From the NCBI GenBank assembly GCA_036924085.1, contig JAVGWX010000011.1:25409476-25473475 (forward strand): a stretch of DNA of 64,000 bases, read 5' to 3'. The notes under the pieces are model-generated. The model saw only the letters and a program-made list of their open reading frames with translations. It was not told where the DNA came from and ran no database searches. Both the position numbers and the translations under genes were made by a program. Positions 37,104 through 44,496 of this stretch are shown one piece after another. Source of the stretch: Ariolimax columbianus. Its lineage: Eukaryota; Mollusca; Gastropoda; Stylommatophora; Arionidae. Numbering within the stretch: position 1 is the stretch's first letter; each line of letters opens with the position of its first letter.

Positions 37104-37125
37104 TTCTTCTTCTTCTTCTTCTTCT
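37104..37125 (-). repeat. (GAA)n 3' tail of the retroelement
   Basis: Seven or so aag/gaa units at the 3' end in place of poly(A). The same tail occurs on copies at 7963, 55754 and, decayed, 61826, and on unrelated relics at 6655, 9740 and 14330. Confidence 0.85.
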
Positions 37126-37135
37126 GCGTACACAG

Positions 37136-40100
37136 TCAGACAGTAACCATTATTTTTTCGAAAAAAGCTGCGGTCATCCTGAGGCTCTCGCCACTGCCAT
37201 AGAGCTTGTCTTGCAGTTCCACTGGTAATGGCCACATCTGCTCTCTCTGATCCTCGTATGTCGGGCAGTTCTGCAGCAGATGTTCAGTGGTCATTTTACC
37301 AGTACCGCACGGGCATTCGTCGGTACACCCTATCTTCAATTTGTTGAATAGGTGGTACCTCAGTCTGTTGTGGCCAGTGCGAAGTCTGAAGACAACGACC
37401 TGCTCTCTTCGGTTCAACTGGTAATAGGCATCGTTTTTGGTGTAACCAGTATGTTCGGTTTCCCATTTGGTCATGTATCTGGCTTTGATAAGCCGTTTTG
37501 ACTCTTCGTACATTATACTGGTATCTGTTTGTGGTAGTCTTGCACCTTCTTTTGCCAGTCTGTCTGCCTCCTCGTTGCCTTGGATGTTGCAGTGTGACGG
37601 AACCCACTGTACCACTACCCTTTTTGGTGCGGACTGCTGGCACAGTTTGCAGAGTGCTGCTCTTAAGTCATTAAGCTCAGTGTTTTTCTGGCTTTTTAGC
37701 GCTGTGACTACGGCGAGAGCATCTGTCAGCAGGACTATATGGCTCTCATTTTCACTGTGTGTCACCATTTCTTCCACTGCCGCCCTCAGTGCCTCTGCCT
37801 CCGCTCTGAAATTGCTTGTGTACTTACCAGTAGCGAATGACAGTGTTATTTTTCTGCCATTTGGTAGGTTCAGGAATGCTCCTGCCCCTCCGTTCTGTGT
37901 AGTGTTTGTTACAGAGCCGTCGGTGTATGCATGGGTCCAGTCCATGCTTGGGTAGCTTTTCGTTATGAAGCTTAGGGTAGTGTCTCTCCTTTCTTTTTCA
38001 GTCTGGCAGTTTTTGTTTGCAATACCTGGTATATTTTCTACCACCTCTGGAAATATATCCTGCCTCCAGGTAGGTTTTCGTACAGTAGTGATGGGTTTTG
38101 GTGTTGTTAGTGCGTTTATGGGATCTTCGTGCATCTTTTCTTTGGCTATTTCTGCAAAGTTTCTCCGCTTTAGTTTCCCATTTCCCAAATTGTTTAGTCT
38201 CTGGTACATTGGATGGTCCGTCAGTCTTCGGAGTTTCTCTGACTGCAGCTGGGCTCTGCAGTCTCTTCTATCGGTCATGGATTGCAGTTTTGTAATCTTT
38301 TCAAGTTCTACAATTGGCGTTGACTTCATGCCACCTGTTATAATTCTCATGGCTTGGTTTTGAAGTTTGTTAACTTTATCGAAGTTCGCCTTCACTGCTG
38401 TTGTCCATGCCGCAATGCCATACTCGAGAACTGGTCTCACTCTTCCAGTGTACAGTTTCTTTAGTATGCCTTCGTCTGCTCCCCAGCTTGTGCCAGCAAG
38501 TTTCCTCATGATTGCCATTCTTTCTCTGGCTTTCATTCGGTTTCTCTCAATCTGACTTTTCCATATCATGCGCCGATCAAATGTGACTCCCAGATAGGTT
38601 GGGTTGTCGTTTGGCTGCAGGATTTTGCCATTTAGACTTAATTTGGTACTTTGGGGTTTTAATGAAAGCGAGAATATTGTGCATGTGGTTTTCTCCTCGT
38701 TTATTTTGACCAGCCATGAGTTCGCCCACTCTTCCAGCGATGTTAGGGCCGTCTGCATCCGATTTCTTGCTATGGTGAGATTCTTTTCAGAGGTCCACAT
38801 AGCCAGATCGTCTGCAAACATTGAGCTATGGACTCTTCTTGGTATATTCTCTGTAATATCGTTTATATATACCAGGAAGAGTGTGGGTGACAATACTCCC
38901 CCTTGGGGTACTCCCTGCTCGAGTGTCACCTTTTTGCTCATCTGCCCTTGTACTTGGACTCTGGCCGTTCTTTGTTTGAGGTAGTGGTTGATCCACTTGT
39001 ACATCTTCCCCCAGACATCACTTCTTCTTAGCTTGACTCTAAGTCCGTCCTTCCAGACTTTGTCAAATGCCTTTTCCAGATCCACCCAAACAGCTACTGT
39101 GTGTTTCTGTGCCTGGTAGGCATCTTCTATCTCCTGGGCTATGAGGATGACCTGGTCCTCAGTGGATCTGTGCTGTCTAAAGCCGGCTTGCTGTGGAATT
39201 AGTATTCGTTTTTCTTCCAGATGCCACGTCAGTCTGGTGTTTATCATCCGTTCCATCAGCTTGCCGACACAGCTCAGTAGGCTGATGGGCCTGTATCCAT
39301 TTGGATCTGTTTTATCCTTTCCTGTTTTTGGTACTGGTACCAGTATTGCGTCTTTCCATGCCTGGGGTACAATACCCCTTTTCCAGCTTTGGTTCAGGAC
39401 TGATAGTAGTTTCCTCTTCGCTGTTTGGCCCAGCCCCATCAGCATTTCGTTTGTTATCCCGTCTTTTCCGGGAGATTTCCTTTTCTTTAGTGTTCTCATA
39501 GCCTCTTCCATTTCGCGCATTGTTAGTTTGGCCATCATGTGCTCTTCGGGAGCCGTATTTATGTTTTCGTGTCCCTTTAGCTCTTCGCTAATGTCTGTAT
39601 GCTTATCTGCAGGGACCTCGATGTGGTTTGCTCTGGCATAGTGATCGACAAAGGCGTTTGCGGCTTTCTTACCTGTGATCAAGTTCTCGCCCTGCTTGAT
39701 AGTAATTTGTTTATTTGACGGGGTTTCGTCGTTCATGGCTCTGACTAGCTTCCATAGCTTGTTCCCGTCTTTGTCCAGGTTTAGACTTTCCGTTCTATTT
39801 TTCCAGCTTTCTCTTGCTGTTTGCTTGAGAGTGTGTTTGTACTTCGCCGCGGCGGCTTTGAGGGCGATGTTTGCCTCCATGGATTTTTCTCGCTCTGCCA
39901 TGTTCCTAGCATTTGTTACTGCATCTTCCACTTTCTGCAACTCATCATTCCAGTAGGGCTTATAGTTTTTCCTAGCTCCTCTTGGGATGGTTTCAGTGGC
40001 GGCTTGCATTATTGCCTTGCTTAGGCTCTCTACCATGGGCTTCATTTTGGTGTTTCGTGTGTTGATGGTTTCACACAGCCCATCTGTCAGTATTGCAAAT

Positions 40101-42647: not shown

Positions 42648-42696
<49 letters not shown>

Positions 42697-43862
42697 TTTG
42701 CAACCATACTTCCCCCGGAACCCAAACACTTTGGTTTCCCGGAAGCTGCCCGCAGAGTCATCGAAGCAACTCCTGCGGATCGCTAGTCGGCATCGTTTAT
42801 GGTCAGAACTACGACGGTATCTGATCGTCTTCGCGCCTCTGACTTTCGTTCTTGATTAATGAAAACATTCTTGACAAATGCTTTCGCAGTAGCTCGTCTT
42901 GCGGCGATCCAAGAATTTCACCTCTAACGCCGCAATACGAATGCCCCTGTTTGTCCCTGTTAATCATTACCTCCAGTTCCGAAAACCAACAAAATAGAAC
43001 CGAGGTCCTATTCCATTATTCCATGCACCATTATTCAGGCAGCCGAGGCCTGCTTTGAACACTCTAATTTTTTCAAAGTAAACGCGCCGGCCACCCAGGA
43101 CGCTCAGCGAAGAGCACCCGTGGGAGAGAGCCGGCAGACGGTAGGGCAGGAGACAACGGGCAGTGAACCGGCGCGAGCCGGACCGCCCGCCTGCGCCTGA
43201 GATCCAACTACAAGCTTTTTAACTGCAACAACTTTAATATACGCTATTGGAGCTGGAATTACCGTGGCTGCTGGCACCAGACTTGCCCTCCAATAGATCC
43301 TCGTTAAAGGGTTTAAAGTGTACTCATTCCAATTACGGGGCCTCGAAAGAGTCCCGTATTGTTATTTTTCGTCACTACCTCCCCGTGCCGGGAGTGGGTA
43401 AGTTGCGCGCCTGCTGCCTTCCTTGGATGTGGTAGCCGTTTCTCATGCTCCCTCTCCGGAATCGAACCCTGATTCCCCGTTACCCGTTACAAACATGGTA
43501 GGCATGTCACGTACCATCGACATTTGATAGGGCAGACATTTGAAAGATGCGTCGCCGGCACATGAGGCCATGCGATCAGCACAAAGTTATCCAGAGTCAC
43601 CAGTGGGGACGCCGCAACCCCGCGAGGGGAAACGACGATTGGTTTTGAACTAATAAAAGCGCTCTTTCCGCGAGGGTCGGAGCTTGGTAAGCATGTATTA
43701 GCTCTAGAATTGCCACAGTTATCCAAGTAGGATCGTGTCATCTAAGGAACCTCGACTGATTTAATGAGCCATTCGCGGTTTCACCGTGAGACAGTGTGAA
43801 CTTAGACATGCATGTCTTAATCTTTGAGACAAGCATATGACTACTGGCAGGATCAACCAGAT
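42624..43862 (-). rRNA. 18S (SSU) rRNA, 5' two thirds, partial
   Basis: Minus strand begins CTGGTTGATCCTGCCAGTAG and carries the expected landmarks in order: GGTAATTCCAGCTCC near 43260, AATAGCGTATATTAAAG, AACTTAAAGGAATTGACGG, and TTTGACTCAACACGG at the break. The length (~1239) fits the normal position of that motif, so no large internal deletion is present. The remaining ~600 nt are absent. Two departures from near-universal motifs (AAGACATGCATG for AAGCCATGCATG; AGCATGAGAAACGG for AGCCTGAGAAACGG) suggest this copy is not a working gene. It is part of the retrotransposed unit. Confidence 0.93.
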
Positions 43863-44496
43863 ATCTGTCGGAGACGTACGTACAGCACACACCGGTCGGC
43901 GGAGGAAGGGTGTGTAAAAAGCCTCGCTGGGACGACGGCCGCAGGGACCGACTGACGGGACGGACGGTTTGTTCCACCCGTCCCTCACTCCGTCGACCTA
44001 GGACCGCCTGACAGGGGCCTCCCACACGCACCAGACGACCGACCGACCGGGCTCGCTCGAGGAGGGATGGCAGCGCTCTGTGCAAAACGGATCCCAACGA
44101 CCTCGGCGATGAATTTCACTGGGACTAGAGACAATTTGGCCTGTCGGCCTGCCCTTCTCCGTAGGAGAACGCAGGGCCTCGAGGCAACGATTCCTGCTTT
44201 CCATTTGCCGGTCACAAGCTCTTTGCGAGAGTCGGACCACCAGCGAGACGTACTGTCGAGCTCTGCTATAAGCCTTAGATAAATCACCACGGACGGACCA
44301 CGTTTCCTGATACGGACCAGACCAGCGCACCTCGGTGGAGGAGCCGCTGCAACAAACCGCACCCAATTCGCTCTACGGGGAAAGGCAGGCGAGCGTTTTC
44401 CGCAAGCCCGCGCTATCGCTCCGCCTGGCGGGACTGAGATCGCTTTACGAACACTGGTTGAAATTGAGTCGCTGCGGCGAGACAACTACCCCAGAT
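43863..44496 (-). other. rDNA 5' external transcribed spacer fragment
   Basis: About 634 GC-rich bases directly upstream of the 18S 5' end, with no other homology in the window. The upstream limit is set by the insertion boundary (minus strand starts ATCTGGGGTAGTTGTCTC). If the retrotransposed RNA was full length, this end marks or lies close to the Pol I start site. Open frames here (for example 43985-44485) are chance. Confidence 0.7.

Follow-up and report, generated by a model that had tools for sequence, protein, structure and literature searches.

A dispersed LINE family of Ariolimax columbianus with copies that begin at the presumed transcription start of the host rDNA unit

Introduction

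A LINE retrotransposon in the genome of Ariolimax columbianus carries the front part of the host ribosomal RNA gene unit at its own 5′ end, and it is one member of a large dispersed family. The element was studied in a window of 64,000 nt of A. columbianus DNA (contig JAVGWX010000011.1), which is the whole stretch that was analyzed, and positions are given in window numbering. The front of the element begins at the apparent start of the pre-rRNA, which suggests that the family spreads by riding on rRNA transcription. If this is true, the family documents, in thousands of copies, the natural mobilization of a LINE together with the ribosomal RNA precursor, and it would link the rDNA-resident R-elements with dispersed LINEs. 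It would also throw light on the way LINEs produce and complete their 5′ ends and would account for a genome in which pre-rRNA 5′ ends are scattered and can confuse rDNA assembly and 18S surveys.

Structure of the Composite Element

The composite described in an earlier sequence-only reading is real and lies on the minus strand, from 44496 to 37104. In this orientation it consists of 633 nt of the rDNA 5′ external transcribed spacer (ETS) from the presumed Pol I start (44496–43864), nt 1–1240 of 18S rRNA (43863–42624), a leader, a single frame encoding endonuclease (EN), reverse transcriptase (RT), and RNase H (40993–37136, the upper limit being extrapolated from L072, another full-length copy), and a (GAA)n 3′ tail (37125–37104) that reads (CTT)n at 37103–37125 on the plus strand. 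The joint between 18S nt 1240 and the leader is located at 42624/42623. The 18S portion was matched by Rfam at 43860–42716 (E 5e-279), and window positions 44497–42624 form one alignment with positions 10169–12044 of the host rDNA unit at 98.35% identity, the reference unit being that of C222 with L069 and L070 joined. The EN, RT, and RNase H domains were matched by Pfam in the pieces of the window copy and in the open frame, and the element thus has the AP-like endonuclease, RT, and RNase H of an APE-type LINE with RNase H. Where another copy has an open frame, the window copy is interrupted by two in-frame stops, adjoining 40250 and 40820. The ETS, 18S, frame, and tail of the proposed layout stand, but the two stops and the rRNA origin of the leader had been overlooked.

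The element is flanked by a 12-bp target-site duplication (TSD) with one mismatch, consisting of agtcttctaaac on the left (37092–37103, plus strand) and agttttctaaac on the right (44497–44508, plus strand), with the halves of a repeat on either side. The repeat is indeed split by the element, as had been proposed; its parts adjoin at 46003–46159 (families D3, D6, and D14).

The leader is itself rRNA-derived, an old mosaic of 18S and 28S fragments. On the minus strand, the part next to the frame (41567–40994) has no Rfam match, a search of 40800–41600 at E values up to 1 having returned none. The adjoining part (42200–41568) is a diverged 28S rRNA 3′ end (model positions 2939–3401 of 3401; 90 bits, E 9e-22), and three monomers occupy 42686–42150 (42686–42490, 42489–42310, and 42309–42150). 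Each monomer is composed of an 18S-like piece from nt 1178 and a 28S-like hairpin piece, and the 18S piece of the first monomer runs unbroken from the true 18S. Since 18S-derived monomers are already part of the element, CAACACGG at 18S nt 1240 is the point where the monomers diverge from the real 18S. A consistent 18S match in the monomers past nt 1240 was rejected by comparison with 300 shuffles: monomer 1 scored 30 against a best shuffle of 29, monomer 3 stood at 0.027, and monomer 2 and a fourth stretch had no match above chance. The monomer fold is unremarkable (z −1.8).

Copy Number and Common 5′ End

A 28-mer across the 18S/leader joint has 4,367 exact copies in the genome, and a 29-mer at the rDNA start has 2,587, true rDNA included. 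The copies lie by the thousands on chromosomes, so an assembly joint is excluded. The sequence-only reading had envisaged a single event, which this copy number contradicts, and a one-off read-through insertion is ruled out; sister copies with the same joint, which that reading had required, exist in abundance. The 5′ flanks of the copies are mutually unrelated, and TSDs and tails are present in the copies read whole. With dispersed copies and unrelated flanks, insertions of the family are not confined to one rDNA site. The viral contigs searched contained no relative. The loci taken from similarity searches were limited to the best 40 matches, which biases the locus sets to young copies; the set obtained with the ETS query is also biased to the ETS of the window. 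Positions were sampled from the matches listed, with 54 starts, reaching 49.1 Mb, and 100 joints.

The 5′ end of the element is the first base that is homologous to the host rDNA unit, directly after TATATT, and it is presumed to be the Pol I +1 position. Among 29 other ETS-bearing loci, 24 end within 2 bases of 44496, three extend 5–12 bases beyond it, and two stop 4 bases short. The same start is shared by five of five chimeras with other joints, and no rDNA was found upstream of the start in the loci examined. Because the start is common to the copies, we infer co-transcription with pre-rRNA. The proposals that the presumed Pol I start marks the beginning of the source RNA, and that chimeric RNA of rDNA and element was inserted at other sites with a TSD and a (GAA)n tail, are upheld. 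If this reading is true, the fixed start could also serve to map the Pol I start of the host.

Uniform ETS and 18S beside a Diverging Leader

Two leader lineages about 8% apart, A (seven sequences) and C (eight), differ in 18 of 228 leader columns, as against none of 636 ETS columns and none of 1,237 18S columns. For this alignment, 10 of 29 loci were dropped as having no exact anchors, and 5 of the 20 aligned sequences, intermediate between the lineages, were excluded. The 18S consensus of 24 copies equals the host 18S. Because the leader lineages diverge while the ETS/18S consensus is uniform and the 18S is that of the host, the 5′ module appears to be refreshed from rDNA and not simply inherited; simple inheritance of a captured module was set aside on the same column counts.

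The ETS exists in several haplotypes, which cut across leaders and joints, and it is identical to the rDNA unit in two of 10 sampled copies. The window-type ETS consensus differs from the array unit in 32 alignment columns and is constant over 18S divergences of 0–1.45%. No window-type ETS was found among the 40 array matches listed, all 40 of which are identical to the array unit. The idea that the ETS types form a series of snapshots by age was weakly borne out (Spearman 0.40, p 0.015, n 37; 0.60, p 0.12 in a subset of 8).

Insertion into 18S

In two loci the (GAA)n tail is followed directly by 18S nt 1386, and in one of these the complete composite is enclosed by a TSD of 12 bp or more. In L080 and L081 the 18S stops at nt 1395 and the element follows from differing points, and in L077 a SINE lies inside 18S with the TSD ATAGTTCGCC. 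The matching 3′ junctions place the 18S target at nt 1386–1395, with the TSD ATAGTTCGCC, 145 nt downstream of the nt-1240 joint. These junctions are those of fixed-site insertion in an rRNA gene, as read in dispersed copies and not in rDNA itself. For residence directly after CAACACGG, as the earlier reading had it, no such junction was found: (GAA)n junctions within 30 bases before AAAACTCACCCGG, the 18S just after nt 1240, number zero in the readable genome. The L080-type junction occurs in a single copy in the genome, so the 71 related genome matches, three of which were read, are not one amplified type. Alternative joints occur at nt 1711, 1739, and about 1796 and in ITS1. Among 28 rDNA ETS intervals listed, one, on C86, exceeds the length of two units by 7.37 kb; the surplus, which lies between two rDNA ETS copies, may represent an inserted unit.

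Proposed Mechanism and Alternatives

The best reading, which we hold to be probable by a modest measure, is that masters resident in rDNA are transcribed by Pol I and that their read-through RNAs are reinserted genome-wide. Masters of a single-frame LINE, with an AP endonuclease, RT, RNase H, and a (GAA)n tail, would sit in 18S rRNA genes; Pol I would initiate at the rDNA promoter, pass through the ETS and 18S, and enter the element, and the element protein would reverse-transcribe the read-through RNA into ordinary chromosomal sites. Copies reaching the 5′ end of the RNA would for that reason have the Pol I start as their first base. Insertions in 18S that are 5′-truncated would be joined at the top-strand cut, nt 1395, with the TSD ATAGTTCGCC, and full-length insertions, whose leader opens with an 18S-like piece, would be joined by homology at nt 1240, with about 145 nt of 18S replaced. 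Through concerted evolution of rDNA, the masters would retain current ETS and 18S sequences even as the leader diverges. The structure, the copy numbers, the common 5′ end, the target duplications of copies read whole, the uniform 18S beside a diverging leader, and the 18S junctions are observed, and we infer the identity of the start with the Pol I +1, the residence of the nt-1240 masters in rDNA, Pol I transcription, and the homology step. The lack of an nt-1240 joint among the rDNA units that were readable, the absence of (GAA)n junctions near nt 1241 in the readable genome, a window-type ETS unlike the array unit, and the weak age correlation were counted against resident masters. The mechanism first proposed from the sequence was broadly right, save for the single event and the unproven site of residence.

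The main rival, which we regard as rather unlikely but deserving of weight, is strand transfer onto pre-rRNA. Here the RNA of the element would start in or near an 18S-like monomer, the cDNA end would pair with pre-rRNA at 18S nt 1178–1240, and RT would switch and copy the pre-rRNA to its 5′ end, so that every new copy gains fresh ETS and 18S without an rDNA-resident master. On this account, again an unlikely one, a leader that mimics 18S would have arisen in the LINE and would act as a retroviral-like strand-transfer site, the cDNA hopping to pre-rRNA at the end of first-strand synthesis and being completed to the Pol I start, and repeated rounds would have made the 18S/28S mosaic leader. The joint coincides with the departure of the element's own 18S-like piece from 18S and is common to diverged leaders, the ETS haplotypes are distributed across leaders and joints, and the joints at nt 1711, 1739, and about 1796 and in ITS1 resemble jumps, all of which strand transfer accommodates. 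The nt 1386/1395 junctions with their TSD, however, indicate DNA insertion in 18S, and the window-type ETS is constant across its range of 18S divergences yet differs from the array unit. Moreover, none of eight loci picked by their leader (L001–L008) ends at the start of the leader; six reach the ETS and two end within 18S.

Capture of the ETS and 18S once by an ancestor, which then kept them as its own 5′ UTR, is improbable. A single start and joint common to thousands of copies and the constancy of the window-type ETS would follow from it, but the 18S has not diverged with the leader, several ETS haplotypes exist, that of the array unit being found unchanged in two copies, and joints other than nt 1240 begin at the same base. 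About equally improbable is exchange among element RNAs, in which the module was captured a few times and template switching at the 18S monomers carried it from one leader lineage to another. The monomers supply the homology for such exchange, and lineages A and C have one ETS and 18S; exchange alone nevertheless leaves unexplained both an 18S equal to that of the host across a range of private divergence and the exact array-ETS matches in some copies. An assembly artefact or a DNA-level duplication of rDNA is very improbable, as nothing was found in its favor and it is refuted by the thousands of copies of one joint, by the unrelated 5′ flanks with no rDNA upstream of the start, and by the TSDs and tails.

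Comparison with Known Systems

R1 and R7 are R-elements of rDNA. So are R2 and the R8 element found in the 18S of hydra, which, like the present family, insert at one site in an rRNA gene and are presumably co-transcribed with pre-rRNA (PMC5035012). In fish R2 families, insertion is reported to replace 110–130 bp of 28S (PMC5035012), which resembles the replacement of about 145 nt proposed for this family. The present family differs from the R2 layout in its AP-type endonuclease and RNase H, and from R-elements in its thousands of dispersed copies, its leader of 18S and 28S pieces, and copies beginning at the rDNA start. In R2, a 5′ ribozyme is reported to release the element RNA from the 28S co-transcript (PMC3414825); in the present family the rRNA part is retained.

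LINE-1/28S rRNA chimeras also have sense rRNA at the LINE 5′ end; the report on them describes 18 loci with 28S pieces of 50–482 nt and ascribes LINE-1/RNA chimeras to template switching or ligation (PMC13174262). As compared with those chimeras, the present family has thousands of copies, one joint, one start, and an ETS with 1,240 nt of 18S. Its events are not sporadic with varied joints, one joint being found 4,367 times, though varied joints also occur. In a literature search of titles and abstract openings, no LINE family was reported as beginning at the rDNA start.

The closest named proteins listed are from the gastropods Littorina saxatilis and Batillaria attramentaria, with 42–51% identity, and the top match aligns over 71% of the query. 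The LINEs of these gastropods, putatively of the 'I-group', have the same EN-RT-RNase H order in one frame.

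Organization of the Composite Element

The sequence-only reading described the element as a chimera of rDNA and a retrotransposon, and this structure is borne out: all parts occur in order on the minus strand, flanked by 12-bp target duplications that differ at one position. The element opens with the rDNA 5' ETS (44496-43864) and 18S nt 1-1240 (43863-42624), followed by an rRNA-derived leader that runs from the joint with 18S (42623/42624) to 41568, a single EN-RT-RNase H frame with two in-frame stops (about 40993-37136), and a (GAA)n tail forming the 3' end, to 37104. An Rfam scan gave no match in the approximately 570 nt between leader and frame. 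A second copy of the interrupted host repeat, at 46003-46159, has its parts side by side. Elsewhere in the window, the 3' end of the element is found again in three 5'-truncated fragments, at 7956-8508 (96%), 55755-56464 (89%), and 61826-62121 (77% identity).

In another full-length copy, the frame runs uninterrupted for 1,304 codons and encodes domains of an AP-like endonuclease, an RT, and an RNase H. In sequence comparison, the match to the solved LINE-1 ORF2p (113 bits) exceeds that to R2 (48 bits). Among the matches listed, the named protein relatives are from Littorina saxatilis and Batillaria attramentaria, and, of the matches that span almost the full length, database contigs reach the highest identity (65-67%). 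A literature search over titles and abstract openings listed no report of a LINE family starting at the rDNA start; the nearest kinds are R-elements and LINE-1/28S chimeras, the latter at 18 loci (PMC13174262).

Family Size and the Common 5' End

The window lies at G000:C11:25409476-25473475 in a genome of 2.29 Gb. Searching that genome with 721 bp across the leader and joint yielded 2,546 first-look candidates, and each of the best 40 scored, window included, spans the query in full at 99-100% identity. An ETS query gave 2,283 candidates, with the best 40 scored at 99-100%. Exact occurrences number 2,587 for a 29-mer at the rDNA start, true rDNA units among them, and 4,367 for a joint 28-mer. 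On contig C1, up to 49.1 Mb, a same-orientation joint follows within 2.6 kb after 39 of 54 starts, at a distance of 1,786-1,865 bp in 36 of these pairs. Typed at two ETS sites, the 54 starts fall into 37 CA, the type of the window, 12 CG, and 5 TG, the type of the rDNA unit.

The homology that copies share with rDNA starts at one same base, immediately 3' of TATATT, a context that we take to resemble a Pol I start motif. Of 29 further loci that carry ETS, 24 stop no more than two bases from it, three extend 5-12 bases beyond, and two fall 4 short. The printed 5' flanks are unrelated to each other, with a T-rich stretch approximately 13-17 bases upstream of the start. All five chimeras with other joints, at 18S points or in ITS1, begin at the same base. 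In two loci on C9 (L030 and L031), a shared element fragment (40681-39290) directly precedes the ETS start, which lacks 4 bases.

Many chimeras among L041-L065, including L059 and L060 on C17, join full or partial 18S plus ITS1 to the element elsewhere than at nt 1240, with recurrent breaks near 18S nt 1711, 1739, and 1796. An 18S-18S-leader chimera is present in four copies (L054-L057) at C13:37.3-38.2 Mb, two per strand, with pair members approximately 120 kb apart, reflecting either an inverted duplication or its assembly.

Host rDNA as the Source of the 5' Module

Positions refer to a 12,701-nt host rDNA unit on C222, joined from L069 and L070, in which 10170 is the element's first base and 10805, 11982, 12044, 12190, 12199, 12515, 12543, 12600, and 12653 are 18S nt 1, 1178, 1240, 1386, 1395, 1711, 1739, 1796, and 1849, respectively. 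The consensus of 24 full copies departs from host 18S at none of the 1,240 sites, and its ETS differs from the C222 unit at 32 alignment columns; the 40 array matches listed are all identical to that unit. Ten further C1 copies, chosen for being of CG or TG type, differ from these in ETS haplotype; the ETS of two matches the rDNA unit exactly, and nine of the ten keep the nt-1240 joint.

Two leader lineages, A (seven sequences, including the window) and C (eight), among 20 aligned in all, are told apart by 18 of 228 columns in the leader, 14 of them nearly fixed, and by none of 636 columns in the ETS or 1,237 in 18S. The shared ETS is partly selection because loci were chosen by ETS similarity; the invariance of 18S across diverged leaders is not owed to that choice. 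Window-type-ETS copies with private 18S divergence of 0-1.45% trace to 18S identical to the host's. Different joints also share one ETS haplotype: L053 (nt 1739) and L112 on C1, the latter's joint assigned to nt 1240 by position, agree at 47 informative columns. Fixed changes would be expected to build up in a free-living master, and these alignments indicate that the source is rDNA.

Insertion into the 18S Gene

The sequence GAAGAAATAGTTCGCC occurs four times genome-wide and not at all among controls. At two places on C17 the element's (GAA)n is followed directly by 18S from nt 1386. One of them (L079) has a target site duplication (TSD) of at least 12 bp around the whole composite, and therefore downstream 18S and ITS1 were attached to an element end in the template RNA; the second locus (L078) showed no clear TSD. 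The third occurrence is the SINE of L077 (C15:37076565), which is (GAA)n-tailed, lies within 18S with the TSD ATAGTTCGCC, and is directly followed by element leader. In the fourth, L076 (C6:87064910), just ten bases of 18S, ATAGTTCGCC, stand amid other sequence. The SINE of these two loci is approximately 330 bp long, ends in (GAA)n as the element does, and is probably mobilized by this LINE.

There are 71 places where 18S breaks off at nt 1395 (TATTAAATAGTTCGCC followed by a non-G base, which is A in 53, T in 9, and C in 9), against one occurrence of the reversed-pattern control. Among three of these examined, L080 and L081 pass from 18S into the element, which is truncated at a different point in each, and the third (L082, the same place as L039) is presumably a mosaic of 5.8S, 18S, and 28S pieces. 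The 10-bp TSD at the 18S site is close to the 12-13-bp TSDs of dispersed copies. These arrangements show that 18S nt 1386-1395 is used for insertion. Separately, G000:C86:86404-118342, between two identical rDNA ETS copies, holds two units plus 7.37 kb, a surplus of about full element length.

Composition of the Leader and Mechanism

The leader had been read as element sequence, a view not upheld by its Rfam match and its 18S- and 28S-like monomers, which identify it as rRNA-derived. The Rfam match at 42200-41568 is to a diverged 28S 3' end and scores 65 bits when the window is scanned whole and 90 bits (E 9e-22) in a short scan. This 28S part is preceded by three monomers (197, 180, and 160 bp, lengths that depend on where the cuts were set), each with an 18S-like piece at its start, from nt 1178, and a 28S-like hairpin piece. 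The latter gives local scores of 40, 40, and 34 in monomers 1-3 versus maxima of 23, 23, and 22 in 1,000 single-base shuffles; a fourth stretch, continuing into the 28S end, scores 28 versus 27. The monomer and 28S region is old, since older relatives such as L047, L052, L058, and L061 match it at 72-89%.

The best single account, which we hold to be somewhat favored, is that masters would reside in rDNA, Pol I would read through the rDNA into them, and the chimeric RNA would be reinserted. On this account, insertion would replace the 145 nt between the nt-1240 joint and the nt-1386 target, with the 18S piece of the leader as the guide; a published parallel is the replacement of 110-130 bp of target by fish R2 families (PMC5035012). 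The 18S-like sequence of the leader also figures in the main rival, strand transfer from the leader onto pre-rRNA, which we consider less likely.

Other Features of the Window

A perfect tandem repeat of 12,785 bp (9239-22023 and 22022-34806, 100% identity), with a tRNA gene in each copy (16137 and 28920), reflects a duplication that is either very recent or made by the assembly. Minisatellites with units of approximately 30 and 60 bp, open in at least one frame, lie at 3922-5655 and 54572-55054.
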